The position numbers and the translations under genes are program-made. Of a DNA stretch of 46,467 bases, positions 15,269-44,466 are shown in pieces. The notes under the pieces were generated by a model. The model saw only the letters and a program-made list of their open reading frames with translations. It was not told where the DNA came from and ran no database searches. Positions within the stretch are counted from its first letter, which is position 1. Each line of letters begins with the position of its first letter. This stretch comes from Bacteroidetes bacterium GWF2_40_14 (lineage in GTDB: Bacteria > Bacteroidota > Bacteroidia > Bacteroidales > UBA932), in assembly GCA_001769195.1 (NCBI GenBank), contig MEOK01000042.1:1-46467 (forward strand), in the 5' to 3' direction.

Positions 15269-15303
15269 ATTGTATTTATTGTAAATAACTTACTTACCCT
15301 GAA

Positions 15304-16326: not shown

Positions 16327-16383
16327 AAAATGTGGTTTTATACATACATGTTTGTATTTAATGAAACCACAATTAAAACTTAT

Positions 16384-19300
16384 ATGAACAACAGAATTTT
16401 GTCAAATTGGAGAATAGTGGTAACCATATTCTCTTTTTTGTTATTGATGGCTCCTTCCGGAGCATTCGCACAAAAAATCTCATTGAATTTCAAAGACGTA
16501 CCATTAAAGGTAGTCTTGAACAAGATCAGCGAGGTAACCAGCTACAGATTTGTATACACAAGTAAGCTGGATGTAGATAAAATAATTGTATCCGCCAACT
16601 TTAAAGAGGTTGATGTAAACAAGGTGATGTCTGAACTTTTTTCTTCAAACAACATCTCTTATTCTATCAAAGGGAAACAGGTTGCACTTGCCCCATTAAA
16701 GGTTGCAGGAGAGAATCAGGCTCCTTCATATGAAAAGCAGAAGCCCCGTGTAGATGAAAAAGAGAGTGTCACGGTTCAGGGAATTGTTACTGATGGAACC
16801 GGACTGGGACTGCCGGGAGCAAGTGTAAAATCGGTTACCAGTAACAAATTTGCAATTACAGACTTGGAAGGAAAGTACACAATCAATACTTATCCCGACG
16901 ACATCCTTGTTTTCTACTCTCTGGGAATGAAGGAACAGAAAGTATCTGTAAACAGAAGAAGCGTGTTAAACATATTGCTGGAAGCAGATGTGGTTAAACT
17001 TTCCGATGTTATTGTAACAGGATATCAGACATTGTCAAAAGAGCGCTCAACAGGGTCATATTCAACAATTACTTCGGAATCCTTAAGCAATAAGCTTCAA
17101 CCATCATTTCAAAGTATGCTGGAAGGAGAGAATGCAGGTGTTACAATATCAAAAAGCGGAAGTATTGTAATTAGAGGATTATCAACAATAATGGGAGTAA
17201 AAACCCCTTTAATTGTTGTGGATGGCTATCCTTTGATTGGAAACGGAATGGACATAGAATCGGTAAATCCAGATAATGTAGAGAATATAACTATTCTAAA
17301 AGATGCTGTTGCGGCATCGATATACGGCGCAAGAGCTTCTAACGGTGTAATTGTGATAACAACAAAAAAAGCCCAAACAGGCAAAGTCTCTGCCTCATAT
17401 AAAGGAACTTACGGAATTACACAAAAACTTAAATTTGCTTCTCTTAACTATGCTCCTGTTAGTGATTATATTGATGCAGAAATTGATCTTTTTAATCAAA
17501 ACCCCACATCATATTTAACTTCTTACAATTCATGGAATACTTTAACAGATGTACAATATCTTTTACTAGCAAAAAGCCAATCATGGATGAGTGCAACTGA
17601 AGCAGATTCTAAAATTGAATTGCTTAGAAAAAATGATGCTTTGAAGGAAATTGAAAAATATATGCTTAAATCTGAAAGATCCCAACAGCATAGTATCAGC
17701 ATTTCTGGTGGAACAGAGAAAAACCTTTTTAATGCTTCATTAAAACTTAATAATGAATCAGGTAATCTGGACAATAACACAAATTCAAGATTTATAGCAG
17801 ACATAAATAATATATGGAAACCCACTAAATGGTTCACTTTTAAATTTCTTTCTAATATTAACTACACTAAATCTGTTTCATCGGGCGAAAACTTTTATGG
17901 GTTCAGAATTAATCCATATACAGACCTTTATACAGACTCAGGCGAACCAATATTATATAATCCTGCAGGACAGCGACGGATTCCAGAATATGATAAATAC
18001 TCTCTAATGAAATCAATGTTGTATCATCCATCTGAAGAGCTATATTTACAATACACAAATAATCAAAATTTGCAAATAAGAGTTGGAGGCGATGTCACAT
18101 TAAAAATTTCTGATGAGATCTCAGTTTCTGGAGGGGGTTCATGGGTTAAGGGAATGGACAATACCAAAACAGTTAAGTTAGGTGAGTCATATTTGATGAG
18201 ATCTGCTTACAACGATGGAGCATCAAGAACCAGTAGCGTTAAAAGATACATTCCAGACGGGGGTAAACTCGATGGGTCTAGAGGAAGTCTTGAAACTTGG
18301 GTTATGAGAGGGCAGATAAATTTCCAGAAGTCATTAGATAATAATAAACACAGAATAACTGCTATGGTTGGCTCTGAGATTAGTAAAGACACATATGAAA
18401 CGATGACTTTACCAACATATCTGGGCTATAATCCTATCTCTGCAAGCGTTAACACCGGCTTTGATCCATATGAGTATAATAAAAATACAAATAATATTAA
18501 GGGCGATATGTTATTTCAAAAAGCTCCAGCTAATTTAGGCAGTATAACTTATGGCGGTTCTATAACTGTAAGAGACAGTCGATTTGCCGGATGGTATGCA
18601 AATGGATCTTATGAGCTAAATAATAAATATATCATAAGCGGGAGTGCCAGACTTGATCTTACAAATTTCTTCGGAACTGATCCAAAATACAGATATAAAC
18701 CAACCTGGTCAATTGGAGGTACGTATAAACTATCAGAGGAAGAGTTTTTCAAATCTTATAAACATATTGTAAACAGAATGAATTTAAGAGGATCATATGG
18801 AGTAAACGGTAATATATCTTTAAACCATTTCCCATATTTAGTATTAAGCGTAGGCTCTTATAATTTGAATACAAATGGAATATCATATGGAATATCAAGT
18901 TTCCCTAATAACCAACTAAGATGGGAGAAAACCCAGATTATCAATCTGGGAGCAGATTTCTCATTTCTGAATGATAAGATTAGAGTAACTGCTGAATATT
19001 ATTCAAAAAGAAGCTCAGACCTAATTGCGTCAGACCTGGTAGATTACACAACAGGAGCATATACATTATATCAAAATATTGGATCGGTATTAAACAGAGG
19101 ATATGAATTAACAGTTGCAGGAGATATCTCATCAACAGATAATTTCAAGTGGAATTCTGAATTTATTTTAAGTGCCAATAACAGCAAGCTTCTGACATAT
19201 AACGCAAATCTGACAAGCATTCTGAATTATACTACAACTTCTGGTTCTCTGGTTGCAAATTATCCGTTATATGGAATTTGGGCAATAAGGTATGCTGGTC

Positions 19301-19848
19301 TTGACAATACTGGAAAACCTCTTTATTATAATTCTGCCGGCGAAAAAATAAGTAGCGGAAACCTTAGTCCAGCAGATGCAAAGTATATTGGAAGTTCAAC
19401 TCCAACATGTGAGCTGGCACTGAAAAATAATTTATCCTATAAAAATTTCAGTTTGTCAATTATGTTCATTGCAAAGCTGGGTGGTTACTTCAGGTCGGAT
19501 TTGTTTAATGGAGCTACAATAAATAGCAGATACGTAGGTGAGAGATGGCAAAATCCCGGGGATGAAAACGTAACGATTTATCCAAAACTGATATCAGGAA
19601 ATGTGGAAAGTTCCTATCTTCCTAATTCAGATGTTTTTGTTGTAAGTTCAAATCTACTTAAACTAAGAGATATAACACTTTCCTACGATGCTCCGTCAGC
19701 TTTTTCGAAAGCATTAGGTCTTAAGGGTGTTAAATTATATACCCAAGGAAGAAACTTATTCTACTTTACAGCCAAAGGTGTTGATGTGGATCCGGAAGGA
19801 TTATATTCCCGTCCACAAGTTTATTTTGGTGTTTCTATTAATCTGTAA
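16384..19848 (+). CDS. SusC/RagA-family TonB-dependent transporter with STN domain
   Basis: 1154 residues. The signal peptide ends near AFAQ (29). An STN signalling domain covers about 31-105 (LNFKDVPLKVVLNKIS), then a carboxypeptidase-regulatory-like domain about 130-215 (VQGIVTDGTGLGLPGASV). The plug follows (ITILKDAVAASIYGARASNG, VIVITTKK) and then a long outer-membrane barrel. With the SusD partner it forms a TonB-powered importer; the STN domain links substrate binding to the FecR/ECF pair upstream. The start at 16384 (MNNRILSNW) is preferred over an earlier in-frame ATG at 16330 because it gives a normal signal peptide. No carbohydrate-active enzyme is nearby, so the substrate is not indicated. 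Confidence 0.95.
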   Translation: MNNRILSNWRIVVTIFSFLLLMAPSGAFAQKISLNFKDVPLKVVLNKISEVTSYRFVYTSKLDVDKIIVSANFKEVDVNKVMSELFSSNNISYSIKGKQVALAPLKVAGENQAPSYEKQKPRVDEKESVTVQGIVTDGTGLGLPGASVKSVTSNKFAITDLEGKYTINTYPDDILVFYSLGMKEQKVSVNRRSVLNILLEADVVKLSDVIVTGYQTLSKERSTGSYSTITSESLSNKLQPSFQSMLEGENAGVTISKSGSIVIRGLSTIMGVKTPLIVVDGYPLIGNGMDIESVNPDNVENITILKDAVAASIYGARASNGVIVITTKKAQTGKVSASYKGTYGITQKLKFASLNYAPVSDYIDAEIDLFNQNPTSYLTSYNSWNTLTDVQYLLLAKSQSWMSATEADSKIELLRKNDALKEIEKYMLKSERSQQHSISISGGTEKNLFNASLKLNNESGNLDNNTNSRFIADINNIWKPTKWFTFKFLSNINYTKSVSSGENFYGFRINPYTDLYTDSGEPILYNPAGQRRIPEYDKYSLMKSMLYHPSEELYLQYTNNQNLQIRVGGDVTLKISDEISVSGGGSWVKGMDNTKTVKLGESYLMRSAYNDGASRTSSVKRYIPDGGKLDGSRGSLETWVMRGQINFQKSLDNNKHRITAMVGSEISKDTYETMTLPTYLGYNPISASVNTGFDPYEYNKNTNNIKGDMLFQKAPANLGSITYGGSITVRDSRFAGWYANGSYELNNKYIISGSARLDLTNFFGTDPKYRYKPTWSIGGTYKLSEEEFFKSYKHIVNRMNLRGSYGVNGNISLNHFPYLVLSVGSYNLNTNGISYGISSFPNNQLRWEKTQIINLGADFSFLNDKIRVTAEYYSKRSSDLIASDLVDYTTGAYTLYQNIGSVLNRGYELTVAGDISSTDNFKWNSEFILSANNSKLLTYNANLTSILNYTTTSGSLVANYPLYGIWAIRYAGLDNTGKPLYYNSAGEKISSGNLSPADAKYIGSSTPTCELALKNNLSYKNFSLSIMFIAKLGGYFRSDLFNGATINSRYVGERWQNPGDENVTIYPKLISGNVESSYLPNSDVFVVSSNLLKLRDITLSYDAPSAFSKALGLKGVKLYTQGRNLFYFTAKGVDVDPEGLYSRPQVYFGVSINL

Positions 19849-19852
19849 TAAA

Positions 19853-21412
19853 ATGGCTATGAAAAGATTTAAAAATATTATTCTATTGATTATTTTGGTG
19901 CAATTATCGGGATGTTCAAAATTTCTTGATGTAAAACCAGCGGGAAAACTAATCCCGGAAAAAGGAGATGTTGCCTCTTACGAAAAATTACTCAACAACG
20001 ACTACACTCTTACAGGAGGGTTTAGAAGCGATGCTAATGGATTTTGCAGGCTAAACTATTTAACCGATGATATTGAGATCTCAAACAATCAGGCAGACTA
20101 TTTTTGGATAAGCTCTTCTCCTGCTATGGATTTATACTATGCCTACGTTTATAAAATTCCTTATTATAGTCCTACAGAGCCGGATCTGTACATCTGGTGG
20201 ATGGATTTTTACAGAGCAATTGAGTACTTCAATGTATGTATAGACGGTATAAATAGTGTCAGAACCGAAGAAGAGAAGCAATTAGCGAATGAAACAATTG
20301 CACAGGCAAAAGTTGCAAGAGCGTATCTTTTTTTTAATCTTGCCTTGATATATGGTCCAGTCTATAATCCAAACGGCACTAATGATTTCAGGACTATACC
20401 AATGAGGACACAGAGTGACGTTATGGCACCAATGGAGGACCTCTCAACTAATGGAGAGATTTTCTCTCAGGTTTTAAAGGATATTCACTCCTCATTAAAA
20501 GTAATTCCTGATGAGGTTGCAAGTCCTTCCCGATTTGGAAAAGGAGCAACTTTAGCTTTTCTGGCAAATTATCATCTCTTTACACAAAAATATGATAGCG
20601 TTGCTCTGTATGCGAACCAAGCTTTAACTCTTGCGGCTACTCAAAAGGGAGGAATAGATAACCTTTTTTATGACTACAATAAGTTTACATGGGCAGATGC
20701 AGGGGTTGTAACTGATCCTAATAAGAAAAATGCAAGTACTATAAATACATCACAAGGATCCGATGCTTTAACTGCTAATTATAACAGAGAGATGTTACTG
20801 TACAGAAAGTGTGCTAATCCTCCAGGATCTTCTTATGCATACCCATCCCAATCATTTCATAATCTATTTAACACAGGGCAGGATCTTAGACGTGATTTTT
20901 TCTTCTTTGAATACAATGGTTATAAAACCATCCAAGCCGGAGTTACATATGACGATGGAAGGAAGGTTCTAAATTATCAGAGCAAGATGGCCAGAACATC
21001 GGGTTTCAGCTATCCGGAGCTTCTTTTGATAAGAGCTGAGGGCCGTGCCAGAACAAACGATCTTGCCGGTGCCATTGCAGATTTGAACCTGCTAAGAAAA
21101 TTCCGAATGAAACCAGGCTTCACCCCATTCGCATCAACCAGTCAGGATGCTGTAATTGAAGAGGTTCTGAATGAACGTCGTCGTGAACTTCCTGTAGGTT
21201 CTCAGAAGAGGTTCCTGGATTTGAAACGCCTTGTTCTTGAAAAGGGAAAACCTTGGGCTAAAGAGTCAATCACTCATGTTGTCAAAGGGACAACGTATAC
21301 TGCAAATGTGAATTCCGACTATTTCCGAATGCCAATTCAGAACGATGTCATAATAAAAAATCCTCATTGGGGGCTTGAAGTTGAAACGAGACCATGGTCC
21401 AGTTCTAAATAA
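19853..21412 (+). CDS. SusD/RagB-family surface lipoprotein
   Basis: 519 residues. The N-terminus MAMKRFKNIILLIILVQLSG is followed by Cys, a lipobox (LSGC). SusD-family features follow: the early segment SKFLDVKPAGKLIPEKGD, TPR-like helices (AKVARAYLFFNLALIYGPVY) and a C-terminal segment (YPELLLIRAEGRARTN, LNERRRELPVGSQKRFLDLKR). It forms the lid over the SusC transporter and takes part in substrate capture. The start at 19853, 4 bases after the SusC stop, is chosen over a longer frame overlapping susC because it yields the lipoprotein signal; ATG at 19859 is also possible. Confidence 0.93.
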   Translation: MAMKRFKNIILLIILVQLSGCSKFLDVKPAGKLIPEKGDVASYEKLLNNDYTLTGGFRSDANGFCRLNYLTDDIEISNNQADYFWISSSPAMDLYYAYVYKIPYYSPTEPDLYIWWMDFYRAIEYFNVCIDGINSVRTEEEKQLANETIAQAKVARAYLFFNLALIYGPVYNPNGTNDFRTIPMRTQSDVMAPMEDLSTNGEIFSQVLKDIHSSLKVIPDEVASPSRFGKGATLAFLANYHLFTQKYDSVALYANQALTLAATQKGGIDNLFYDYNKFTWADAGVVTDPNKKNASTINTSQGSDALTANYNREMLLYRKCANPPGSSYAYPSQSFHNLFNTGQDLRRDFFFFEYNGYKTIQAGVTYDDGRKVLNYQSKMARTSGFSYPELLLIRAEGRARTNDLAGAIADLNLLRKFRMKPGFTPFASTSQDAVIEEVLNERRRELPVGSQKRFLDLKRLVLEKGKPWAKESITHVVKGTTYTANVNSDYFRMPIQNDVIIKNPHWGLEVETRPWSSSK

Positions 21413-21924: not shown

Positions 21925-22707
21925 CTAAAGAAGCAGTTTCTCCTTCAGCAGCTTGTATCCGGTTGTGCTTGCGCGTACACTGGTGCCATTTTTCAGGTAG
22001 ACATTGTAGCTCTCCTTACCGAAAAGTTCCACTCTGGTTATTTTTTCTGTATTCACTATGCATGAGCGGTGAATGCGGACAAATGACAAAGGGAGGTGCA
22101 TCTCGAAGTACTTCATTGTCTGCTCTTTTATATACTTTCCCTTGTCTGTAAACAGCATTACATAATCGCCATAAGCCTGAAGGTATAGCAGTTCTTCCAG
22201 ACGAACAATATGAATCTGTACTCCCTCCTTTACCGAAATTCTGTCAATAACCTCTCCCCTCTCCGGCTCCATACTCTCCTTTCTGCAATTTTCCTCAATC
22301 TGCTGCATTTGCAACCGATCCTTTACAGAATGGTACCATTGGTTAAGAACTATGAGGCACAGAAGGCCGTAAACAAAGCATAACGGGAATATTGCGACCG
22401 CCACCTCCGGTTCGTCTGTCTCCAGGATCATAATTGCTGCAAATGTACCTGCAATGCAGACAAGCTGCACTACCACCGCAATTAAGACCCTTAAAACAAA
22501 TGTGGGGATATAATCGATAATATACCAGTAAAGATATCCGGCGAGGGACAGCAGAAAGACATAGGCAGCTGAGGCAACCAGAGTGTTTAGAACATTAAGA
22601 TTTCCGTACAAAGTCAAAAGCAACCAGAGGACAGCTGCGGCAAGGATTGCCAGTGCTGTTCCGGTTGCCTTTTTAATAAACGACTCTGTGAATGGATGTG
22701 GACTCAT
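21925..22707 (-). CDS. Membrane-anchored LytTR-domain transcription regulator
   Basis: 260 residues. Four hydrophobic helices (about 15-34, 41-60, 70-94, 101-121) precede a LytTR DNA-binding domain at about 155-258 (VRLEELLYLQAYGDYVMLFT, FVRIHRSCIVNTEKITRVEL). There is no receiver domain, so it would sense through its membrane part or a partner rather than by phosphorylation. It starts 3 bases after the stop of the LiaF-like gene, so the two form an operon and probably one regulatory unit. Sure of the LytTR domain; signal and targets unknown. Confidence 0.88.
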   Translation of the reverse strand: MSPHPFTESFIKKATGTALAILAAAVLWLLLTLYGNLNVLNTLVASAAYVFLLSLAGYLYWYIIDYIPTFVLRVLIAVVVQLVCIAGTFAAIMILETDEPEVAVAIFPLCFVYGLLCLIVLNQWYHSVKDRLQMQQIEENCRKESMEPERGEVIDRISVKEGVQIHIVRLEELLYLQAYGDYVMLFTDKGKYIKEQTMKYFEMHLPLSFVRIHRSCIVNTEKITRVELFGKESYNVYLKNGTSVRASTTGYKLLKEKLLL

Positions 22708-22710
22708 TTT

Positions 22711-23451
22711 TTAACTCTTGATTTCCAGTCCCCCAAATGTTACACTTCCGCGTATTACAAGTCTGTGTTCAGTGTCAGAGTTTTCCCTCATCCTGTAACG
22801 CTTATCTTCGCTTCCGCCGGCCATATGCTGTACATTTACATCTACTGTCCAGTTTCCCGGAACATAGATCTCTACACCTCCGAAAGTACACTCAAGATCT
22901 ATAAATGTCCTCTCTGCCTCCAATACAGTGTGTCGCAAGTCCAGGATGGTTCCGCCAAAGGTGTTCTGAATTTTTGCTCCTTTGAACACAGGATCAAGTA
23001 CAATCTGTTTTACTGACCCGAATGTACATGTTGAGTTCACAAACCCCTTATCTGTAGTGTATGTGGTCTCCTGAGTGAACCTATCCCTTCTGTATGGGAA
23101 TTTGTCGGGGCGAAAAAGTTTGACAAGAAGCAGGACACCTACCAGAACAAAAACCAGAGGCCAGTAAGTACCCAGCCATTCAGGACCTACCCCTATAAGG
23201 CGTGGTATAAGGAAAAAAGAGCCTACTCCAATAAGTATGAGGCCACCGGATGACTGTCCTTTAGACAAAGAGACAAGCCCTATTACTATCAGCAGCATCT
23301 GCCATGAGATGAATATCCGCAGAAGATAAGGTTCTACGAAACCGAGATTCTTTCCCAGGAAAAGGAATCCTGCCATTATGAATATTGCAGCAACTACCAC
23401 TACATTAAGTCTGCCGTGAAGGGGGCTGCTCCCTTTGTTGATTACATGCAT
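22711..23451 (-). CDS. LiaF-like membrane protein (LiaF transmembrane and C-terminal domains)
   Basis: 246 residues. The N-terminal half has four membrane helices (about 16-112; GFLFLGKNLGFVEPYLLRIF and WPLVFVLVGVLLLVKLF). The C-terminal half is a repeating beta-strand domain (STCTFGSVKQIVLD, NTFGGTILDLRHTVL, LECTFGGVEIYVPGNWTVDV) typical of the LiaF/YvqF cell-wall-stress response C-terminal family. In Firmicutes LiaF inhibits the LiaS kinase; here the likely partner is the LytTR regulator encoded 3 bases downstream. The inference is an envelope-stress module. Confidence 0.82.
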   Translation of the reverse strand: MHVINKGSSPLHGRLNVVVVAAIFIMAGFLFLGKNLGFVEPYLLRIFISWQMLLIVIGLVSLSKGQSSGGLILIGVGSFFLIPRLIGVGPEWLGTYWPLVFVLVGVLLLVKLFRPDKFPYRRDRFTQETTYTTDKGFVNSTCTFGSVKQIVLDPVFKGAKIQNTFGGTILDLRHTVLEAERTFIDLECTFGGVEIYVPGNWTVDVNVQHMAGGSEDKRYRMRENSDTEHRLVIRGSVTFGGLEIKS

Positions 23452-23578: not shown

Positions 23579-24661
23579 CTACTCTCCCTTGACCGTCAGC
23601 ATTAGTATGTTTTTACCATTTTCGTATTTATATCCGACACTTTTGCACCTGCTCTTTATAAGCCTCAACCCTATGTCATCGTCTGCCACTCCCTCTTCCA
23701 GCGGATTGAGAGGAGTACCTTTACTAGCACACACAAACTCCAGAGTGCCGTCCTTTTCTGAATATGAGAGGCTTAAATCTATATCTGAAAAATCTGATTG
23801 CAGACATAACACCTCTTCTGTTATAAGTGCCAGATAATCACTCTCTTTCTTAGACAACATATGTTTTTCGCAAAATGTCTCAACCTCTCCCTGAAGTGCA
23901 TATAAATCGTAATCTTTGCTGGATATGTGGTGGGTAAGGCTGCGTATGCGGTGGATGAAGGTTTTGGTCCTCTCCTTTTGCGGGTTATCGAAAATCTGTT
24001 CAGGTGTGCCTTCTTCGTATATTACTCCCTGGTCCATATAGAATACACGACTCGATATATTACGGGCAAATTCCATTTCGTGGGTTACAATGACCATAGT
24101 CATACCCTCTCTTACAAGCCTGCGGATAACAGAGAGCACCTCACTTACCATTGTGGGGTCAAGTGCAGAAGTAGGTTCGTCAAAAAGCAGGATTTCCGGT
24201 TCCATTGCCATACAACGTGCAATGGCCACTCTCTGTTTCTGCCCTCCGGATAGTTCGTCGGGGAAACTATAGGCCTTTTCTGCAAGTCCTACAAGTTTTA
24301 ACAGCTCGAATGCCTTTTTATTTGTCTCATCACGACCTTTTTTCAATAACTTAACGGGGCCAATTGTAAGGTTTTCCAGAATTGTCAGATGCGAGTACAG
24401 GTTAAAGGATTGAAAAACCATTCCCATCTTCTGCCGTATCTTAGGTACATCCGATTTTTTATCCAGCAACGAGAGACCGTCTATTAATATCTCTCCCCCG
24501 GTTGGTGTTTCAAGAAGGTTAAGACAACGCAGGAACGTGCTTTTTCCTGTGCCCGACGGGCCGATTATAGAAATTACCTCACCTTTTTTTATGTCCGTAC
24601 TAATATCTTTAAGAACGACAAGGTCTCCAAAATGTTTAGAAAGGTTTCTTATGCTTATCAT
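23579..24661 (-). CDS. Amino-acid-type ABC ATPase fused to a degenerate RsbW/GHKL-like domain
   Basis: 360 residues; GlnQ-type ATPases are about 240. Residues 1-240 are complete: Walker A GPSGTGKS (34-41), Q-loop near 84, signature LSGGQ (137-141), Walker B LLFDEP (158-163), H194. Residues 248-360 are extra and follow the order of the RsbW-like kinase encoded in the same operon: helix, LITEEVL (compare LVMEEAL), beta strands, SKGTPLNP (compare DDGREYDP), then [20 protein letters not shown] (compare LGIFLIKKIMDSVRYKRTDN). The Mg-binding Asn of the N-box is Leu287 and the G1 Asp is Ser313, so it probably does not phosphorylate. It may bind the STAS protein and tie the importer to partner switching. 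The start overlaps the permease stop by four bases (ATGA). Confidence 0.85.
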
Positions 24662-27651
24662 TGGTTTACCTCCTCAGCTCTTTTAATTTTTTTTCTTTTG
24701 GGATCAACCGATATTTCGACATAATCCAATGCCCATGTAAGGAGCCAGGCAATCATCAGATATATGACTGCTGCCATAATAAGAGGGAAAAATGCGTCGA
24801 ATGTACGGCTGCGGATAATGTCACTTGCCTTTGTAAGATCCTGTACAGCAATGTATCCCACTATAGATGTCATCTTTACCAGCGATACAAATTCTCCTTT
24901 GTAAACCGGCAGTACATGCCTCAAAGCCTGAGGCATTATTATATAAACAAATGTCTGGACCTTAGTGAAACCTCCCGCAATTCCTGCCTCCTTTTGTCCA
25001 TTGTCTACACTATCTATTGATGTTCTGAACATTTCTGACACATAAGCCGCAAAGTTGAGTCCGAATGCGAAAATCGCTACCAATACAGGATTTATGTTTA
25101 CCGATGCAAAGACGATGTAGTATATTATCATTAATAATACAAGTACCGGAGTCCCTCGTAATATTGAAATATACAATTTTGCAAAAGCAGATAGAGCTTT
25201 TCTCTTTGACATACGCATAAAACAGACAAGCCCTCCAAGAATGGTGCCTACCAATGCAGCAAAGATTGAGATGAAGACTGTAATCTTCAACCCTTCAATT
25301 ATAAGCAGATATCTCTTCTCTCTAATAATATTATTGTAAAAGCTGTTTGATATTTTTTTCCAAAACGACAATTTGGTGACCGCTTTCTGCTCGCCTGCAT
25401 ATTTTGTCATACTCTTTTTGGGAACAACCACAGCTGTTTTAAATTCGGCATAACTGTCGGAAAAATCGATTTGCTCCGCCCTCTCCCAGCTTATTGAAAT
25501 TCCGTCTGTAATCATATCGGCCTTACCGGCTGCAAGTGCAGCTATAAGCGAAGGAAACTCCATCGTTATGATTTCCAGATTATAGTTCCTGCGCTCTGCA
25601 AACAATCTTATCATCTCAATGTCGAACCCCACAAAAGAACCATTCATGAATGCAACATAGGGAAGATCCTCCACCGACACAGCGACTACGAGTTTTTTAT
25701 CTGACGATGGATTGTTGAATGGAGGCATTACAGCTTTTTCCGGGTCGTCCTCGAACCATCTCTTATGCATGGCTCCATGGGTTCCATCTGCCCGTATTTC
25801 CTTAAGGAAGCCATTGAATTCGTCCCTGAGGGCATGGTTCTTTTTGTTAAAGCCGACACCTAACGGAGTGTCAAGTGCGTCGTCGCATAAAATTGCCAGT
25901 TCATTGTTTCTTTTCAGAAGTATCCTGGCAGTTATCAAATCAAGCATTGCTGCGTCAGTCTTGCCGGTTGATACCGACAATATGAGGTCCGCGGTACTTT
26001 CAAACCTGCTTACCGATGCCTTTGGATATTTTTTTGCAAGAAAGGCGTCATGAACGGTACCTGAAAAGATTCCGATTTTCTTATTTGCAAGATCATCCAT
26101 ACCAGTCAGTTTGTCTGCTGAATAACCGGCAATATTTTTTTTCTTCGCTATTACACTTACACCTGACTCATAGTAGGGATCCGAAAATTCGATCTGTTTT
26201 TTCCTCTCTTCGGAAATCATGAGAGAACAGGTTACCATATCTATCTTATTTGTGGATAGCGAGGCCAGCATACTTCCGAAAGGAAGGTCCACAGGTACAA
26301 ACTCCCTGGCAATATGTTCCGAGAATCGTTTAGTCAATTCTATATCAAAGCCGGAAAGATTTCCTTCTCTTGTAATTGTAAATGGAAGTCCCAGGTCGCT
26401 GACAATACCTACTTTAAGGATGCCGTTGGTTTTCACGCTTTTAATTTCCGGCATTTCAGGTATTTCAGATGTGCTCTTATCCATCCATCTTTCAAACATC
26501 TGGTCATAAATGCCATTAGCTTTAATCTCTTTCAAAAATGAATTGAATTTTTCACGAAGCTCATCATTGTCCTTGTTGAAACCTGCTCCTATGGGTACAG
26601 AAAACACATTTGCTGCTAATACATCCAGCTCTTTATTTGTACTTAAAATATCTTTTAACGCCGAATGGTCGAAAAATGCAGCATCGGCCTTGCCGGAATT
26701 AATTGCCAGAAGCAAGTCGGAAATACTCTGGTATTGCATTATTGATGCATCGGAATAATTGCGGGTAGCATAAGCATCGTGAACAGAACCCTGCAATACC
26801 CCTACGCACTTGTTCCTGATATCATCTATCGATGACAGGTTTAGTCCTTCTGCCTTTTCTTCCGAGACTCCGTCAGTTTTGACAATTGCAGCAAGACCGC
26901 TCAAATAGTAGCTTTTTGAAAACAGGACGCTTTTTGCCCTCTCCTCTGTTATGGAGAGACCGGCACCAATCATATCAACCTTTCCGGAAATTAGTGCAGG
27001 GAGCATTGCCCCGAATTCCATATTTGTTATTTCAAGGCGTTTGCCAAGTTTTTTGGCAACGTATGAGGCAAATTCAATATCGAATCCCACAATATTTCTG
27101 TTGCCGTCCACAAATGACATGGGCTCTGTAACAGAGGCAGTACCAAAGCGTAAAACTCCATTATCTCCTGCAAACTCTATCACTGGCATAGCTGCCGGTT
27201 CTCCCTTAGCCGGGAACCAGCGTTTACTCATATCATCATATGTGCCGTTTGCCTTTAGCTCTTCCAGCACTTCGTCTATCTTGTTTTTAAGCTCAACATC
27301 ATTAAGTTGTACCGCAAAACCATAATTGTCGCCGACAAGCATCTCCTCAAGTACTGCCAGTCCCTCATTCTTGCCTGCAATATTCAGCAGAACCGGTTTA
27401 TCATATACTGCAGCAACTGCCTTACCTCCCTTTACTGCAAGGGCACAATCAAGAACGCTGTTGTAATATTCCAGTTTTGCATCGGGAAATCTTTGTAATA
27501 CAAACTGGTCGGCAGCAGTTCCGGTGGGAACAGCAAATGTCTTTCCTCCTTCGAGCATAGAAAGGGCAGTGATTCTTACATCTTTATCGCTGCAACCCAA
27601 CAGTGTGACGATTACAGAAATAACGAGACAATGCAAATATTTCTTCTTCAT
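24658..27651 (-). CDS. Multi-SBP/permease fusion of an amino-acid-type ABC importer
   Basis: 997 residues. A lipoprotein signal has lipobox LLGC (Cys20). Then come a partial SBP_bac_3 module (29-150, lobe 2 plus closing helix), a whole module (160-392), a second whole module (408-635) and another partial module (653-745, lobe 1 only). A HisM/GlnP-type permease follows (about 783-985), with an EAA-like loop ([20 protein letters not shown]). The closing segments repeat clearly: [45 protein letters not shown]. The two partial modules are the complementary halves of one domain. It presumably imports amino acids or related solutes with the ATPase encoded next. Start and stop overlap neighbouring genes by four bases each. 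Confidence 0.9.
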
Positions 27652-27974
27652 TTTAATGCCAGGTCCTTATCAGGGTATATGGAAAAAATTGATGTGAACC
27701 CGGAAATATCAAAAATTTCCTGAATTCCCGGTTGAAGACTGCAAAGTCTTAACTCGCCTTTACTGGCCATCATCTTTTTCTGGACAATAAGAAATACCCT
27801 TAGTCCGGAGCTGCTTATATAGTTCAGTCCGGAGCAATCGAGGATTATCCTGTTTATTCCGCTTGCGACAACCTCCATTACAGCCTTTTCAAATTCGTTT
27901 GCATTTGTGGTGTCTACTCTGCCCTCCACACTGATAATTGAGTAATCGCTTGAAATTACAACGTTTACATTCAT
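27648..27974 (-). CDS. STAS-domain anti-anti-sigma-type protein
   Basis: 108 residues, a single STAS domain of the SpoIIAA/RsbV type. The motif LDCSGLNYISSSGLRV (45-60) places the phosphorylatable serine at about Ser55 by comparison with DSSGL in SpoIIAA. It would be phosphorylated by the RsbW-like kinase encoded upstream and dephosphorylated by the PP2C protein. It overlaps both neighbours by four bases, indicating coupled translation and matched amounts. No partner sigma factor lies nearby. Its target may be the RsbW-like kinase, the degenerate RsbW-like tail of the ABC ATPase, or a distant regulator. Confidence 0.92.
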   Translation of the reverse strand: MNVNVVISSDYSIISVEGRVDTTNANEFEKAVMEVVASGINRIILDCSGLNYISSSGLRVFLIVQKKMMASKGELRLCSLQPGIQEIFDISGFTSIFSIYPDKDLALK

Positions 27975-28384
27975 GATTCGATATTTTTAGTAAGAATTAA
28001 GTTATTTCTGTTATCTGTCCGTTTGTACCGGACACTATCCATTATCTTTTTTATCAGGAATATTCCCAATCCACCAATGGGTCTCTCCTCTGCAGGCAAA
28101 GATATGTCGGGATCCTTCTTCTGAGTGGGGTCGTACTCGCGTCCATCATCAGTAATAATAATTGTAAGCAGGGGTCCTGTTTTATTAATATTTATCTCTA
28201 TAGTGTGACTTCCATTATTGTCAAACCCGTATGATATGGTATTGGTTAAAGCCTCCTCCATAACCAGGTTCAGGGAGAAAACAAGCGGAACCGGTAAACC
28301 CCACTCTTCGCCAAGTTCTTCCATAAACCGAGCAACCTTTGTCAACTCCTCTATTTTATTATTGACAAGTAAAACTTTATCCAT
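27971..28384 (-). CDS. RsbW-like serine kinase (GHKL ATPase)
   Basis: 137 residues. The Bergerat-fold motifs are intact: N-box LVMEEALTNTISYGF with Asn48, G1 box TDDGREYDP (Asp79, Gly81) and G2 box GGLGIFLIKK (104-113). In partner switching such proteins phosphorylate a STAS protein and, when free, bind a target such as a sigma factor. I chose ATG at 28384 over a TTG at 28393. It overlaps the phosphatase gene by 8 bases and the STAS gene by 4. Confidence 0.92.
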   Translation of the reverse strand: MDKVLLVNNKIEELTKVARFMEELGEEWGLPVPLVFSLNLVMEEALTNTISYGFDNNGSHTIEININKTGPLLTIIITDDGREYDPTQKKDPDISLPAEERPIGGLGIFLIKKIMDSVRYKRTDNRNNLILTKNIES

Positions 28385-30305
28385 TGTAAACAATTGTCAT
28401 CATAGTGATATCATCCGATTGAGCAAAACCATTTACATGAGCAGATATACCCTCTTCCATTTTATGAATCAGTTCACGTGGTGGAGCTGTCACGTTCCTA
28501 CCTATTATATCCATTATAGTTCCATCTCCAAAAAGCTCACTTTCAGAGTTTTCAGCTTCGCTGACTCCATCTGTGTAAAGGAATATCTTGTCTCCCGGTT
28601 CAAGTTGGATAGAGGACTGACCATAATCAAAATCTTCAAAAAGCCCCACCGGAATGAATTTGGTCTTATCGAACATGACAGCCTCTTTGTTCTTTTTGAT
28701 AATCACAGGAGGATTATGGCCGGCGTTTGTATATTTAAGTTCTCCGTTTGAGAGGTCCAGAACGCCAAGGAAGAAGGTGACAAACATACTTGATTCATTA
28801 TTGAGCGATATAGATTTATTAAGTGTGCCAACAATGACAGATGGAGAGGACTCCTTGTCTGATATCGAGCGTACAAGTGTACGTGTAACAGCCATGAAAA
28901 GTGACGCCGGAACACCCTTGCCCGAAACATCGCCAATGGCAAAACAAAACTTATTTCCGTCAATTACAAAAAAGTCATACAGGTCGCCTCCGACCTCCTT
29001 TGCCGATTTCAATACAGCAAATACATCAATCTGCGGTAGATCAGGAAATGGTGGAAAAATATGGGGGATCATGGACATCTGAATCTCCTTGGCTATGCGT
29101 AACTCGCTCTCAATCTTTTCTTTTGCTGTCGTGGTATCTTTGAGGGTGACAATATAATCTCCCAGCTCCTTTTGCATGAAAGAGAATGAGTTATGTAACT
29201 CTTTCATTTCATCCTCTGTCTTTATTTCCGGCAGATGTACGTTGAAATTGCCGGCAGCTATCAATCTTGCTGACGCGGCAAAATGTTTAAGTGGCGATGT
29301 AAGTTTGTTGACAATCTTGTAGATGACAAATGAAAGCATGGAGAGACCCACCAGAATAAGAATAAGCAGAATGATATTGATCTTGTGCAAAGATGCAAAC
29401 ATCTCGTCATCGGGATAAATCACCCCTATCGACCAATGGCTCGATGGCAATGCCGCATAGTTTATCCATAATTTCCCGGCTTTCCATTTACTTCTGAATC
29501 CTGCCGACTCAAAATTGCTTTTCCCTTGAATCATGTTCCGTCCCGTCTCTCTCATTGCAGGTTGGTTATTCTCCTTGGCAATAGTGAAAATAGTCTGGTT
29601 CATCACGTAATCCTTGTTGGGGTGCGTTATGATAACACCGTTGCGCGACAAAAGAAAGGCATAACCGGTATTCAGTATTTTAACCTGTGACATTATTTCA
29701 GTGAGCCATTCGAGAGAAATATCCACTGTGACTATACCTGAAAATGTTCTTTTTCCGTCTTTGTAAGTATAAAAAGGGACAGAATATGTTGTCATAAGCA
29801 CATTGCCGCCTCCCTCGTCGAAATATGGTTCTGACCAGTATGGTGCATTAGTCATTTTTGGAATCTGGTACCAATCCATGTAGAAGTATTCATAGTTCTT
29901 GTCGCCCAGAACAACTGAATGAATTGTATCTCCCTGTCTACAGACATAGGGAGCAAAATACATACCCTGTTCCGGAAAATAATCAGGTTCATACGCTATA
30001 ATTGATCCGTATACATTCTTGTTGATGCTCAGCATAGATTTTAAGAACGGGATAAGTGAGTCCTTGCTCAGAAATGCCGATTCCAGCATTTTTGCAACAA
30101 TTTCGGGAATTTTTTCTGCCGGTGTCAAAACCTGTTCAATACGGTTGACAGTGTTGTTTGCCAGGAAAATGGCATTTTCTCTTGTTGTTTCCCTTATTGT
30201 ATTGCGGGTGAAATAGTAATAGACAGAAAATGTAACTAGAAAAAGAGCAATGCAGAATAATAATACATTACGGATTATATGGCGGGAGAGTGTCGTTTTT
30301 TTCAT
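28377..30305 (-). CDS. Cache-HAMP-PP2C (SpoIIE/RsbU-type) sensor phosphatase
   Basis: 642 residues. Membrane helices at about 12-33 and 308-330 bracket a periplasmic Cache-type sensor domain (about 40-300; SVPFYTYKDGKRTFSGIVTVDISLEW-like strands, GYAFLLSRNGVIITHP). A HAMP domain (about 332-385) and a coiled linker lead to a PP2C-type phosphatase (420-640). The metal-binding motifs are intact: GGDLYDFF, GDVSGKGVPAS, YTDGVSEAEN and QSDDITMM. It should dephosphorylate the STAS protein in response to a small ligand outside the inner membrane. Cache domains often bind amino acids or carboxylates. Starts 23 bases after the orphan binding-protein gene. Confidence 0.93.
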   Translation of the reverse strand: MKKTTLSRHIIRNVLLFCIALFLVTFSVYYYFTRNTIRETTRENAIFLANNTVNRIEQVLTPAEKIPEIVAKMLESAFLSKDSLIPFLKSMLSINKNVYGSIIAYEPDYFPEQGMYFAPYVCRQGDTIHSVVLGDKNYEYFYMDWYQIPKMTNAPYWSEPYFDEGGGNVLMTTYSVPFYTYKDGKRTFSGIVTVDISLEWLTEIMSQVKILNTGYAFLLSRNGVIITHPNKDYVMNQTIFTIAKENNQPAMRETGRNMIQGKSNFESAGFRSKWKAGKLWINYAALPSSHWSIGVIYPDDEMFASLHKINIILLILILVGLSMLSFVIYKIVNKLTSPLKHFAASARLIAAGNFNVHLPEIKTEDEMKELHNSFSFMQKELGDYIVTLKDTTTAKEKIESELRIAKEIQMSMIPHIFPPFPDLPQIDVFAVLKSAKEVGGDLYDFFVIDGNKFCFAIGDVSGKGVPASLFMAVTRTLVRSISDKESSPSVIVGTLNKSISLNNESSMFVTFFLGVLDLSNGELKYTNAGHNPPVIIKKNKEAVMFDKTKFIPVGLFEDFDYGQSSIQLEPGDKIFLYTDGVSEAENSESELFGDGTIMDIIGRNVTAPPRELIHKMEEGISAHVNGFAQSDDITMMTIVYNG

Positions 30306-30328
30306 AAAATCATATTGTTAAATGTATA

Positions 30329-31300
30329 TTACCTATCCAGAGGTTTATAAAACTCCGCAAAAGTGTACTTCCACTTACTCTTTGTGCTGTTATCCAGAAT
30401 TCCGGCTGCTTTAAGAAAATCAGATTCAAGGAGCTCGCCTCTTTTTGTTTTTTTATCTGATATCATTATCATTTCCAGTACTTTATCCAACATCCACTCC
30501 TGATGCACCCGGTTGGCTGGTATATGTGCCTGTTTCATTCTCTCAAGTACCATATCTATTGCAATTGTCTTGTTAGCAGCTGCATAATCCCACCCTTTAA
30601 GGGTTGCCTCAAGGAACTTAAGAAGCTCAGGCTTTCTCTTCTCATATGTAGATTTAAGACAGTACAACCCATCTTCTGGTATATCGTATCCATATTCGGC
30701 TACAGGAAAGACATTCAGCTCGTCTTCGTTTACTCCGCAATTTATTATGTTATTGTATTCATTGTACCACATAACCGTCATAGCATCTATTCCGTCCATC
30801 ATAAAGAGGTTTACCGTAGATAAGATGGGGACCCATTCCACATTTAAACTTTTCTCTTTCATAAGTGCCTTGGGGACCTCGTCAAATCCACTTTTCCAAA
30901 TGCCTATTTTCTTTCCGTCTAACTTGCCGAGCTTGTCAATTCCACTGAATTTTTTTGTAACAAAAAGAATTGCAGAGTGTTGCGAAATCTGGGCAATGTT
31001 TACAATATCCAGCCCCTGATTTTTTGCTGACATACCCGTAATGAGAAAGAGCGAGATTAAATCTGCCTTACCGGAAGAAAGAAGAGCTGTTGCCTGAATG
31101 TTTGCAGAGGGATGGACAATCTCCACCTCTATACCGGCTTCTTTATAAAATCCCTTCTCCTGGGCCACATAGTATCCGGCAAATTGCGCCTGTGGCAGCC
31201 ATTGGGGAGCGAAGGTTATTTTAGGAAGTTGTGCATGAACGTAAGTTGGGGAAAACAGGAGAAAAAGCAGAATGACCGCTTTAAATGTGAAAGTTTTCAT
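30329..31300 (-). CDS. NMT1/THI5-like periplasmic solute-binding protein (orphan)
   Basis: 323 residues. A signal peptide ends near VHAQ (24) and there is no lipobox. The mature protein has the NMT1/THI5/SsuA-like fold signature (ITFAPQWLPQAQFAGYYVAQ, then KGFYKEAGIEVEIV, LLSSGKADLISL, LDGKKIGIW). Such proteins usually deliver pyrimidine, thiamine-precursor, sulfonate or nitrate-like ligands to SsuC-type permeases. No such permease or ATPase is nearby. It is instead the first gene of the partner-switching operon, directly ahead of the Cache phosphatase, so it may be an accessory ligand sensor. Ligand unknown. Confidence 0.87.
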   Translation of the reverse strand: MKTFTFKAVILLFLLFSPTYVHAQLPKITFAPQWLPQAQFAGYYVAQEKGFYKEAGIEVEIVHPSANIQATALLSSGKADLISLFLITGMSAKNQGLDIVNIAQISQHSAILFVTKKFSGIDKLGKLDGKKIGIWKSGFDEVPKALMKEKSLNVEWVPILSTVNLFMMDGIDAMTVMWYNEYNNIINCGVNEDELNVFPVAEYGYDIPEDGLYCLKSTYEKRKPELLKFLEATLKGWDYAAANKTIAIDMVLERMKQAHIPANRVHQEWMLDKVLEMIMISDKKTKRGELLESDFLKAAGILDNSTKSKWKYTFAEFYKPLDR

Positions 31301-31400: not shown

Positions 31401-32849
31401 ATGAAAAAATTCTCAAAAGGCTTTCTGTTTCTAATGTTATGCGCATGCATGATTGTACTTTCCACACAATGTGACAAAACTGCGAATGACAAGTACCCTT
31501 ATCAGTTGAAGTTTTTGACTGAAAATTACAAACCCTTGAATTATACTGAAATTCATACAGTTACCGGATTAGCTCCAGACCTGCTCAGGGAAATATGTAC
31601 CAGACTAAAGATACCTTTTAACGTAAATGTCCTGCCTTGGAACGAAGCTTATACACAAGCCGTAAACACAGACAATGCAGTTCTTTTTTCTACAATCCTG
31701 AACTCAGACAGAAAAGACATCTTTAAGTGGGCGGGTCCTTTTGCCTCAATCGATTGGTTTTTCTATGCCAGGCCGCAGGCTCAGATAAAGCTGAGCTCAC
31801 TGGATGACGCAAAGAGTGTGGGCAAGATAGGTGTCATTGAAGATTACTCAATAGAACAATATCTTACAAATGAGGGATTTACAAATCTGGTTTATTGCAT
31901 AGACAATATTGATGCATTTGACAAGCTTCTTAAAGGTGAGATAGATCTCTTCCCATCAGATAAAATTACTGCAGAGGCTGCATTGAAGCAGTTAAATAAA
32001 TCGTACTTCGGCGTTACTCAAAAACTTACAATCCGCACCGACCTTATCTACTTTGCATTTAACAAAAAGGTTCCGGACGCTATTGTGGCTGATTTCCAGA
32101 GAGAGATTGACCGTCTCAAGGAAGATGGTACTTTAAGGACGCTCTCACAAAAATACCTGAACTCCTCTGATTTTCCCGGTACCCTGCAAATCTATACAGA
32201 ACAATATCCCCCGCTCTCTTTCCGGAACAGTTCCGGCGAGATTACAGGTTTCGGATCGGATATAGTATATGAAATCATGAAGCGCAACAACCTTTTTATA
32301 GACATCAAACTATCTTCATGGAGCAATGGTTACGAACTTGCGCTGAATAATCCCAATGTCTGTCTGTTTACAATGGACCGAACAGAGATAAGGAGCAACC
32401 TCTTCCAATGGGTTGGGCCAATCGGAACAAATACTACCTATTTCTATACAAAGGCAGGTTCAGGAATTACTATCTCCTCTATTACTCAGGCAAAAGCTTT
32501 GACTAAAGTAGGAACAGTAAACTCTTGGTTTTCTGACCAATATCTAAGAAGCCTAGGCTTCACGAACCTGGTTTCATTCAGCGATCCTTCAGTGATGGCA
32601 GAGAAACTAATGCGAGGAGAGGTTGATGCATTTGTATGTTCAGGTGTCACATTTCCAGATATTCTGGGCGGTCTTGGATACCAGTATAATCAGGTTGTTC
32701 CTGCATTTTCATTAATGTCATCGGATTATTATATAGCTTTTTCAAAAAACACCCCTGTCGAAATAGTCAATAAATGGCAGACTACACTTGGTTTGCTTAA
32801 AAGTGACGGCACCTACGATGCCATTTACCAGAAATGGTTAATTTTTTAA
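31401..32849 (+). CDS. Tandem SBP_bac_3 lipoprotein
   Basis: 482 residues. A lipoprotein signal ends in LSTQC (Cys24). Two complete amino-acid-type binding modules follow (about 33-254 and 262-480). Each has the elements NYKPLNY/QYPPLSF, TGLAPDLLREI/TGFGSDIVYEI, then lobe 2 (VGKIGVIEDYSIEQYL/LTKVGTVNSWFSDQYL), and ends DGTLRTLSQKYL/DGTYDAIYQKWL. No permease is attached. It is followed after 51 bases by a LytS-type kinase and response regulator, so it may act as a periplasmic sensor for them or a capture protein for the divergent ABC importer. Related in fold, but not closely in sequence, to the modules of the SBP-permease fusion. Confidence 0.88.
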   Translation: MKKFSKGFLFLMLCACMIVLSTQCDKTANDKYPYQLKFLTENYKPLNYTEIHTVTGLAPDLLREICTRLKIPFNVNVLPWNEAYTQAVNTDNAVLFSTILNSDRKDIFKWAGPFASIDWFFYARPQAQIKLSSLDDAKSVGKIGVIEDYSIEQYLTNEGFTNLVYCIDNIDAFDKLLKGEIDLFPSDKITAEAALKQLNKSYFGVTQKLTIRTDLIYFAFNKKVPDAIVADFQREIDRLKEDGTLRTLSQKYLNSSDFPGTLQIYTEQYPPLSFRNSSGEITGFGSDIVYEIMKRNNLFIDIKLSSWSNGYELALNNPNVCLFTMDRTEIRSNLFQWVGPIGTNTTYFYTKAGSGITISSITQAKALTKVGTVNSWFSDQYLRSLGFTNLVSFSDPSVMAEKLMRGEVDAFVCSGVTFPDILGGLGYQYNQVVPAFSLMSSDYYIAFSKNTPVEIVNKWQTTLGLLKSDGTYDAIYQKWLIF

Positions 32850-32900
32850 TTTTTTCTAAAAATCTCATTTAGGAATATTTTTTGCTAAGTGAGATAGTTA

Positions 32901-33914
32901 ATGAATAGAGAGAAAAAACAATCTGCAAATTTTGAATATGTAATCCATATTCTCTTCTGGCTTGTATTCATAATAGCCCCACTCTTCCTTCGAGAGGGTC
33001 CTGTTCCTCCACGGTCGGGCAACATGGTATTTCCGGGTCCTCATCCGGCTATGCATAGTCCGCTACTGACACTCTTTCCTGTTCTCATAATTTACTTCTA
33101 CCTTAACTATCTGCTTTTTTCTAAGTGGTACGGACAGAGGCAGTACTTGAAATTTGTGATGTGGAACATAATTACGGTAGTGGCTTTTCTCGGTCTAAGG
33201 TCGGTTTTGGAATTATGGATATGGGAAGTCGGTATCAGAAATTTATTCTTCGATTTTTTGATTTTTCTGTTCATGTTCCTGTTAAGTACAAGTATTACAA
33301 TTTTCAAAATACAGAATATTACAGCCAAACATTTAAGGGAGAGCGAAATATCCTTTTTGAGAAACCAGATAAATCCACATTTTATTTTCAACGTCATGAA
33401 TATGATAGTTGCATTTTCCAGAAAGTATCCGGAGAGGGTGGAGACTGCAGTAAATACATTGTCCGACATTCTGAGGTACATGCTTTACGATACACAGGAC
33501 AAAAGCAAGGTGAGCCATGAAATTATGGTTATTGAACAATACCTCTCGCTGCAAAGGCTCCGATTCGAAAACGAGGTAGAGATAAAGACCTCCTTTACAC
33601 TGTCCGGCAAAGATATTATGGTAGAACCCATGCTGCTGATACCAATTATAGAAAATGCCTTCAAACATGGGACATCGATGGTTTCTTCACCGGTCATAGA
33701 TATATCTCTAACCACTCATAACGGCATTCTTACTACTATGGTGAGGAATAAGTACACTATGCAGAATACCACATCTCTCTCTACATACTCCGGACTGGGT
33801 CTTGCCAATATAAAAAGACGACTGGAGTTGCTGTATCCAGGCAAACATGAGTTTGAAGAAAAGAGAGTGGATAACGAATGGTTTGTTGTTATGTTAAAAA
33901 TTGATTGCAGATGA
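32901..33914 (+). CDS. LytS-type sensor histidine kinase
   Basis: 337 residues. Four membrane helices (about 13-30, 54-74, 84-100, 113-136) are followed by a His_kinase domain with the LytS-type H-box NQINPHFIFN (His160). A diverged HATPase domain has IPIIENAFKHG (N-box) and SGLGLANIKRRLELLY (G2-type box). It should phosphorylate the LytTR regulator encoded next, with a four-base ATGA overlap. The sensor part has no extra domain, so ligand input may come through a partner such as the tandem-SBP lipoprotein upstream. Confidence 0.93.
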   Translation: MNREKKQSANFEYVIHILFWLVFIIAPLFLREGPVPPRSGNMVFPGPHPAMHSPLLTLFPVLIIYFYLNYLLFSKWYGQRQYLKFVMWNIITVVAFLGLRSVLELWIWEVGIRNLFFDFLIFLFMFLLSTSITIFKIQNITAKHLRESEISFLRNQINPHFIFNVMNMIVAFSRKYPERVETAVNTLSDILRYMLYDTQDKSKVSHEIMVIEQYLSLQRLRFENEVEIKTSFTLSGKDIMVEPMLLIPIIENAFKHGTSMVSSPVIDISLTTHNGILTTMVRNKYTMQNTTSLSTYSGLGLANIKRRLELLYPGKHEFEEKRVDNEWFVVMLKIDCR

Positions 33915-34615
33915 TACAATGTGTTGCCCTTGACGATGAAAAATATGCACTGGAACTCCTTTGCGACAATATAAGACAGTTCCCGGAACTAGAACTTGTG
34001 AATTACGGACGTAACCCCGGCGAGATGCTCGATTATATGGAGCATCATTCTGTTGATCTGCTCTTTACCGATATTCAGATGCCAATGCTCAATGGTTTGC
34101 AGCTTATTGAGAAAATGGGCGAACCTCCAATGGTTATTGTTGTCTCTGCCCATCCGGATTATGCCGTAGAAGGTTTTGCCCACAATGTGCTGGATTATGT
34201 TCTTAAACCCATTAAAGTCAAGCGGTTCAGACAGGCTGTGGATAAAGCGCGGTTATTTTATTCAATGTCAAGGTCCGATAACCATCTTCCGGACTCACCA
34301 CATATAGTGCTCAAATGTGAATACAGAAATATAAAGCTTAAAGAATCCGACATAATTTACATAGAGGGACTTAAAGATTATGTGAAGGTTTTTACATCAT
34401 TTCAGTCAAAACCCATTGTCACAAAGCATACAATCAAGTCCATCGGCGAGATTCTCAGTTTGCCCGAGATTGTACGAATAAACAAGTCAAACATTGTGAA
34501 TATGAATTACATGAAGGAGTTTCAGAAAGGATGTATCTATCTCCATGGAAACACCTGTCTTCCCTTAAGCAATAGTTTCAAAGAGAACTACACCAGGTTC
34601 CTTGACTTTGTCTAG
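33911..34615 (+). CDS. LytTR-family response regulator
   Basis: 234 residues. The receiver domain (1-118) has acidic pair Asp8-Asp9, phospho-acceptor Asp54 (LLFTDIQMPMLNG) and the Lys of LKPIK. A LytTR DNA-binding domain covers about 135-234 (SDIIYIEGLKDYVKVF, VRINKSNIVNMNYM). The start is the ATG at 33911, overlapping the kinase stop by four bases, rather than a TTG six bases earlier. It converges on the DUF4249 gene; the two stops share the palindrome CTAG at 34612-34615. Likely targets are the operons flanking this pair, by analogy with other Lyt systems. Confidence 0.93.
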   Translation: MIQCVALDDEKYALELLCDNIRQFPELELVNYGRNPGEMLDYMEHHSVDLLFTDIQMPMLNGLQLIEKMGEPPMVIVVSAHPDYAVEGFAHNVLDYVLKPIKVKRFRQAVDKARLFYSMSRSDNHLPDSPHIVLKCEYRNIKLKESDIIYIEGLKDYVKVFTSFQSKPIVTKHTIKSIGEILSLPEIVRINKSNIVNMNYMKEFQKGCIYLHGNTCLPLSNSFKENYTRFLDFV

Positions 34616-39819: not shown

Positions 39820-39821
39820 AA

Positions 39822-44447: not shown

Positions 44448-44466
44448 TTCTGCTAAATTAATTGTT

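Follow-up and report, generated by a model that had tools for sequence, protein, structure and literature searches.

In the partner-switching systems RsbU-RsbV-RsbW and SpoIIE-SpoIIAA-SpoIIAB of Bacillus, a PP2C phosphatase, a STAS protein with a serine motif and a HATPase_c_2 kinase are encoded in one operon. The same set is found in a six-gene, minus-strand operon of Bacteroidetes bacterium GWF2_40_14, the subject of this work; unlike the Bacillus systems, however, this operon carries not a sigma factor but an ATP-binding cassette (ABC) importer, whose ATPase ends in a predicted RsbW-type domain with a dead active site (hereafter the tail). The operon lies on contig MEOK01000042.1, analysed over its full 46,467 nucleotides (the window). 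This contig, C42, belongs to a genome of 3.36 Mb that is assembled in 42 contigs.

Parts of this arrangement have precedents. An output other than a sigma factor is known from SiaC acting on SiaD (PMC8457831), but in this system (SiaABCD, Pseudomonas aeruginosa) it is a diguanylate cyclase that is controlled rather than transport. In the MlaF-MlaB pair of the Escherichia coli phospholipid transporter, a STAS protein contacts the ABC ATPase; the ATPase studied here is not of the MlaF family that characterises MlaFB-type complexes, and the tail of MlaF is a short extension rather than an RsbW domain. In ABC importers with C-terminal regulatory domains (MetNI C2, ModC), a domain behind the ATPase is a known route to transport control (PMC10710835, main text), but those regulatory domains sense substrate directly. 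We give about even chances to the reading that the six genes form a partner-switching signalling unit with the ABC importer as its output.

The operon and its signalling genes

The features of the operon, in order of transcription and with E-values in brackets, are:

30329..31300, minus strand: NMT1-type periplasmic binding protein with a signal peptide-like start (Pfam NMT1, 2.6e-41)
28377..30305, minus strand: dCache-HAMP-PP2C phosphatase of the SpoIIE/RsbU type (Pfam SpoIIE, 2.4e-50; MCP-like_PDC_1, 3.5e-32; HAMP, 8e-6)
27971..28384, minus strand: RsbW-like serine kinase (Pfam HATPase_c_2, 6.9e-25)
27648..27974, minus strand: STAS protein of the RsbV/SpoIIAA type (Pfam STAS, 8.5e-22; TIGR00377, 5.4e-24)
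24658..27651, minus strand: multi-SBP_bac_3/permease fusion, 997 amino acids (Pfam SBP_bac_3 in 4 stretches; BPD_transp_1, 1.6e-18)
23948..24661, minus strand: ABC ATPase core of the GlnQ/ArtP type, residues 1-238 (Pfam ABC_tran, 2.5e-36; NCBIfam GlnQ, 1.8e-93, with a score under the curated cut-off of that model)
23582..23959, minus strand: putative kinase-dead RsbW/SpoIIAB-like C-terminal domain of the same ATPase, residues 235-360 (hhalign, AlphaFold2 model, PDB fold matches)

The last two entries share one reading frame (23579-24661), and the six genes follow each other with gaps or overlaps of 23, -8, -4, -4 and -4 bases. The -8 results from taking the ATG as the start of the kinase, whose frame opens at a TTG (28393) in the list of open reading frames. 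An earlier annotation made from the sequence alone (the original prediction) had proposed this layout; its coordinates and spacings were reproduced with the kinase ATG, and Pfam agrees with its assignments for the NMT1, phosphatase, kinase, STAS, substrate-binding protein (SBP)/permease and ABC ATPase genes.

The operon has the signalling genes expected of a partner-switching system: a sensor-bearing PP2C/SpoIIE phosphatase, an intact HATPase_c_2 kinase and a STAS protein with a serine motif. The phosphatase, which also matches dCache_1 in Pfam, is membrane-anchored, with one hydrophobic segment around residues 6-33 and another around 311-329. In the kinase, the N-box asparagine and the DxG and G boxes are all intact in the alignment. 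The STAS protein carries the motif YISSSGL with Ser55 (codon 27810-27812) as candidate phospho-acceptor, an assignment that we assume from RsbV and SpoIIAA, and among 31 short STAS proteins from loci with a tail or importer, 27 share the motif SS[SAV]GL. The sole other SpoIIE-type match of the genome is a 402-residue protein encoded after an Fe-S cluster protein (L025:5737-8494, G000 contig C21).

The first four genes also recur as a unit in relatives. With the kinase as query and a cut-off of E 1e-3, matches were found in 222 of 393 same-order genomes, and 40 kinase neighbourhoods, nearly all from the top of this match list, were examined. The order NMT1 > Cache-PP2C > RsbW > STAS recurs among them: unfused at seven loci (L076, L078, L079, L080, L081, L091, L061), with phosphatase and kinase fused at L056, L065 and L074 (also at L059, there without a STAS call), and with Cache and PP2C split at L090, L092, L095 and L067. 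An NMT1 gene lies near the kinase in 17 of the 40. Since NMT1 heads this recurring signalling unit, it belongs to the sensor and not to an importer of its own, and we propose it as the ligand-binding partner of the Cache sensor. This agrees with the description of the gene as an orphan in the original prediction: no permease or ATPase of its kind adjoins it.

That the first four genes are widespread without the importer also means that they must have other outputs, and it lends itself to a reverse signal, in which the tail would sequester STAS or kinase according to the transport state, as a possible decoy, making the importer the sensor and an unlinked target the output. The module already has a periplasmic sensor, however, in the NMT1 protein and the dCache domain, and the window shows no recognisable second target next to the module; we regard the reverse direction as improbable.

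The C-terminal domain of the importer ATPase

With a PAAT-type ATPase, a permease and SBP_bac_3 domains, the importer is of the polar amino-acid type (GlnPQ/ArtQN). The SBP/permease fusion has a lipobox-like N terminus and its permease part at about 24691-25305, and it matches NCBIfam polar amino-acid permeases. The model of the ATPase matches ArtP (2olj) over 236 columns at rank 1, with MlaF (6xgy) at rank 31.

Behind this core, the tail is, by its modelled fold, an RsbW/SpoIIAB-type domain, as the original prediction had suggested in calling it RsbW-like. Three lines agree: the tail profile aligns with RsbWs at 97.6% in hhalign, HATPase_c_2 is matched in Pfam by 15 of 49 aligned tails (the window's own tail has no Pfam match), and the AlphaFold2 model, with a predicted local distance difference test (pLDDT) score of 92.4, finds UsfX, SpoIIAB, RsbW and SiaB as fold matches in the PDB. 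When the tail profile was compared with the sequences of solved structures, there was no match up to E 1, so among structures the tail was placed by fold comparison alone; the structure search with the full-length ATPase was filled by ABC ATPases and uninformative on the tail. The ATP-binding residues of RsbW and SpoIIAB are missing from this fold: the N-box asparagine is absent in all 98 tail sequences, and the G1 aspartate is kept in 3 of 98.

The tails also share features of their own: the stretch F-C-x-K-H and two invariant residues, a D close to the domain start and an E within a YSEK-like motif, none of which was seen in seven aligned RsbWs.

Could STAS reach the importer by another surface? 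On the model of MlaB and MlaF, it might act on the ATPase core or the permease, and the tail would merely position the dimer or compete for the kinase. In the excerpted text of PMC7367683, MlaB binds the helical subdomain of MlaF together with the C-terminal extension of the neighbouring subunit, and a phosphomimetic at MlaB Thr52 weakens the contact, while experimental evidence for phosphorylation of Thr52 is stated to be lacking. The ATPase studied here is of the ArtP/GlnQ kind, however, for which we found no STAS partner in the open-licence literature, and the tail itself has the predicted fold of a STAS-partner kinase. We therefore consider docking to core or permease quite unlikely.

Tailed importers and the module in other genomes

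Within the order, 10 of 149 genomes (the window's own among them) carry the tail, as do 8 of another 160; one BLAST query was used in G001-G148 and a profile in G149-G308, so that the tail searches covered the order sample, which runs to G392, as far as G308, and G216 was left out for its free-standing RsbW-like protein of 156 residues. Of 395 genomes in the phylum sample, 53 match the tail at 1e-5: 43 of them (own genome included) have tailed ATPases, and in 10 the match is to an RsbW-like protein, free-standing or of another kind. Two short patterns, run against named genomes, added 52 loci, including Bacteroidales, Syntrophomonas, Pelotomaculum and Formimonas, with several names of metagenome-assembled genomes in conflict with the ATPase tree.

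Tailed importers and module parts repeatedly lie side by side. A module part (RsbW, short STAS or PP2C) is found within 9 kb of the tailed ATPase at 28 of 111 distinct loci: 18 of 45 in the phylum set, 3 of 19 in the order set and 7 of 47 in the named set. By our own arithmetic, chance linkage would be about one in a hundred, given about two module loci per 3-Mb genome. The 111 loci derive from 117 rows after merging five duplicates with identical tails (L015/L135, L016/L142, L017/L154, L118/L238, L143/L239) and counting L193, taken as the second piece of one gene (same genome, complementary halves), with L192. Long STAS proteins (SulP-like or of about 400 residues) and the motif-less STAS proteins of L124 and L130 were not counted as links.

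The gene orders vary. The window has NMT1 > PP2C > RsbW > STAS > permease > ATPase, and its genus (L057) RsbW > permease > ATPase. Family f136, which we take to be Chlorobiaceae, has NMT1 > PP2C > SBP/permease > ATPase > STAS > RsbW (L097, L100, L104; the same order at L101-L103 with NMT1 cut or beyond the sequence), with a permease-last form at L181 and L189, and family f135 has STAS > PP2C > permease > ATPase (L105, L192). At L237:6801-11490, permease and tailed ATPase are followed by a Cache-PP2C-RsbW fusion with gaps of 46 and 21 bases, the named complete genome of Formimonas warabiya (L158) has STAS > RsbW > permease > ATPase, and the module is divergent or flanking at L116, L121 and L155. 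In G218 (L241:8695-11649), permease and tailed ATPase form one open frame of 984 residues. On a tree of 100 ATPase rows, one of which is no ATPase (L195) and whose long branches carry a warning that they meet, the linked state needs 16 changes, 8 of them forced by well-supported branches. The neighbourhood search proposed with the original prediction thus finds module parts beside tailed importers again and again, in varied orders.

At the level of whole genomes, all tail carriers examined in the order also have the kinase. Counted at E below 1e-18, and with the window's genome and G216 excluded, it is present in 9 of 9 tail carriers against 33 of 148 genomes overall in G001-G148, and in 8 of 8 against 36 of 160 in the disjoint set G149-G308. 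Over both sets, all 17 carriers have it, compared with 69 of the 308 genomes (hypergeometric p about 2e-12, uncorrected for kinship). Within the 11 families containing both kinds of genome (that of G034 and G041 read from the genome numbering), the ratio of kinase present to absent is 12 to 0 for tail carriers and 3 to 20 for non-carriers. Module and importer lie within 9 kb of each other in only 3 of the 17 (G196, G224, G245), so the co-occurrence is mostly in trans.

A rival that these data bear on directly takes the tail for an old structural or dimerisation domain independent of STAS, the module being co-transcribed because importer and module respond to one nutrient, and having another protein as its real output. 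This would fit the near-constancy of the tail. A set of 60 genomes selected for a tail contains 65 close GlnQ-type ATPases (E below 1e-90); the frames of 63 reach at least 360 residues and so have room for it, while one of the remaining two runs into a contig end (G773) and one is broken (G100). Behind these, matches begin at 8e-51; a weaker match on contig C216 of G638, adjacent to STAS and RsbW matches, is a close relative but partial, with a tail that is not assessable. It would also fit the signalling unit occurring mostly without this importer, and full-length tails occurring in Chlorobium-like genomes without a STAS match. Against it stand a predicted fold that matches STAS-partner kinases specifically, a linkage re-formed in many gene orders, and the co-occurrence in the order. 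We hold a structural tail to be unlikely, though it is the rival to be taken most seriously.

Several observations weigh against the importer as output of the switch. Most tail loci (83 of 111) have no module part within 9 kb of the ATPase, 24 of these having under 4 kb of sequence on at least one side, and some linked loci have one part only: the kinase at L057, STAS at L162 and the phosphatase at L173. Seen from the kinase, an importer permease is near in 3 of the 40 RsbW neighbourhoods (L057, L065, L067), and on the kinase tree the linked state needs 6 changes, only 2 of them forced; its mix of linked and unlinked loci is not a rate, because L116, L121 and L155 were found by the tail query and L076-L078 by the kinase. 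The kinase threshold of 1e-18 was picked post hoc, thresholds from 1e-10 to 1e-20 giving 17 of 17 and 1e-25 giving 13 of 17, and lifestyle or genome size may lie partly behind the co-occurrence. Moreover, a common fold does not prove a common partner. Finally, at E 1e-5, no STAS match was found in the tailed Chlorobium-like genomes G561 (99% complete), G597 (95%) and G720 (85%), and no RsbW match in G666 (91%) and G685 (100%), with tail scores in all five within the range of others with that gene form. Tails that persist without a STAS or RsbW match mean that the tail cannot act only through the STAS-RsbW pair, and so the Chlorobium-like tails would either be of use in its absence or have a different partner. 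In f136, 13 of 38 tail genomes, a minority, have a linked locus, and G750 has a kinase and STAS of f136 type without a tail match.

The original prediction, that the phosphorylation state of STAS gates or reports on the importer through the tail, is thus partly supported by the predicted RsbW-type fold of the tail, the repeated linkage and the 17 of 17 co-occurrence, but the pair cannot be the tail's sole route, and contact of STAS with the tail, an effect on transport and the direction (gating or reporting) stay hypothetical.

Transport as a proposed output

What would the operon control, if not a sigma factor? Neither within the operon nor next to it did Pfam searches of the window's proteins detect a sigma factor, in line with the original prediction. 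The two extracytoplasmic function (ECF) sigma genes of the window (14705-15268 and 40655-41206) lie 8.3 and 9.4 kb away, each with a FecR neighbour. The first pair precedes a TonB-receptor and SusD pair (14705-21412); the second is on the other strand beside CarbopepD_reg proteins (38278-41206). The whole genome has one sigma factor with region 3 and 48 region-2 matches. With 29 sigma proteins of this genome and the window's two as queries, a scan of 154 loci and the window found ECF-like genes at 10 of the 154; only at L080 does one lie less than 2 kb from the module, and at L158 such a gene follows the ATPase at a distance of 1.1 kb. A dedicated sigma factor beside every homologous operon, which would have contradicted the original prediction, was thus not seen in these loci, and a hidden sigma factor as general output of the module is rejected by both searches.

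For the importer as output, we propose the following sequence. The NMT1 protein and the Cache domain would sense a periplasmic ligand and thereby tune the PP2C phosphatase, which together with the live RsbW kinase would set the phosphorylation of Ser55 of STAS. The catalytically dead tail would dock unphosphorylated STAS without being able to phosphorylate it, and dephosphorylated STAS could thus shuttle between live kinase and dead-kinase tail, altering the ATP use of the importer. Beyond the domain identities, these are steps that we infer, namely STAS-tail binding, its control by phosphorylation and transport as the output; the effect could be activating or inhibiting.

The signalling unit is often found beside another type of importer, with an ABC_sub_bind binding protein, a BPD_transp_2 permease and an ATPase, which adjoins it at L079:3883-8818 and also at L061, L067, L084, L090, L091 and L095. 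The same neighbourhood encodes a protein of roughly 416 residues that begins with a STAS domain and has no Pfam match at 0.001 in its C-terminal part. Pfam was run on L079 and on single genes of L076, L078 and L095, the others being assigned by profile matches and lengths; the ABC_sub_bind and BPD_transp_2 matches indicate this type rather than an Mla-type transporter.

Predicted transcription signals were unremarkable: the Bacteroides-type promoter pattern has 2 matches in the window against a mean expectation of 1.67 and none at the operon, and neither sigma-70-like sites (22 against 21.4 expected) nor terminator-like sites (10 against 7.2) are markedly enriched in the window. Directly downstream on the same strand (21925-23451) lie genes for two proteins, a membrane protein resembling LiaF and one with a LytTR domain but no receiver-domain match. 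Divergent from the operon (31401-34615) is a 482-residue protein that has two SBP_bac_3 domains but lacks a permease; genes for a sensor of the His_kinase type and a response regulator of the LytTR type come after it. A near relative of the 482-residue protein (5e-230) lies close to the second tailed importer of G074 (L024:3860-5377). Genes for a 2Fe-2S thioredoxin-like protein, a Nuo51-like protein and an [FeFe]-hydrogenase are consecutive at 42782-46257.

Finally, we would like to place the operon in the context of transporter control. The main text of a 2023 review of the field (PMC10710835) makes no mention of STAS, RsbW, MlaB or a partner switch, the term 'ABC transporter' does not occur in a review of STAS-only proteins (PMC8256260), and no description of this layout was found in the open-licence literature, most subscription papers being outside its scope. 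This suggests that the layout, which differs from known partner switching by its importer with a dead-kinase tail, is apparently undescribed in that literature. A broader proposal, tentative and somewhat short of an even chance, is that a widespread class of ABC importers would be switched post-translationally through phosphorylation, on a serine, of the STAS protein docking to the kinase-dead RsbW domain of the ATPase, with transport as direct output, and that the unit possibly also serves the ABC_sub_bind/BPD_transp_2 importer by way of a STAS domain joined to an unknown one.

The control of bacterial transporters after their synthesis is little understood. If the proposal holds true, a reversible phospho-switch would act on an ABC importer, RsbW/STAS modules without a nearby sigma factor would gain a testable output, and a dead kinase domain would be reusable as a docking site.

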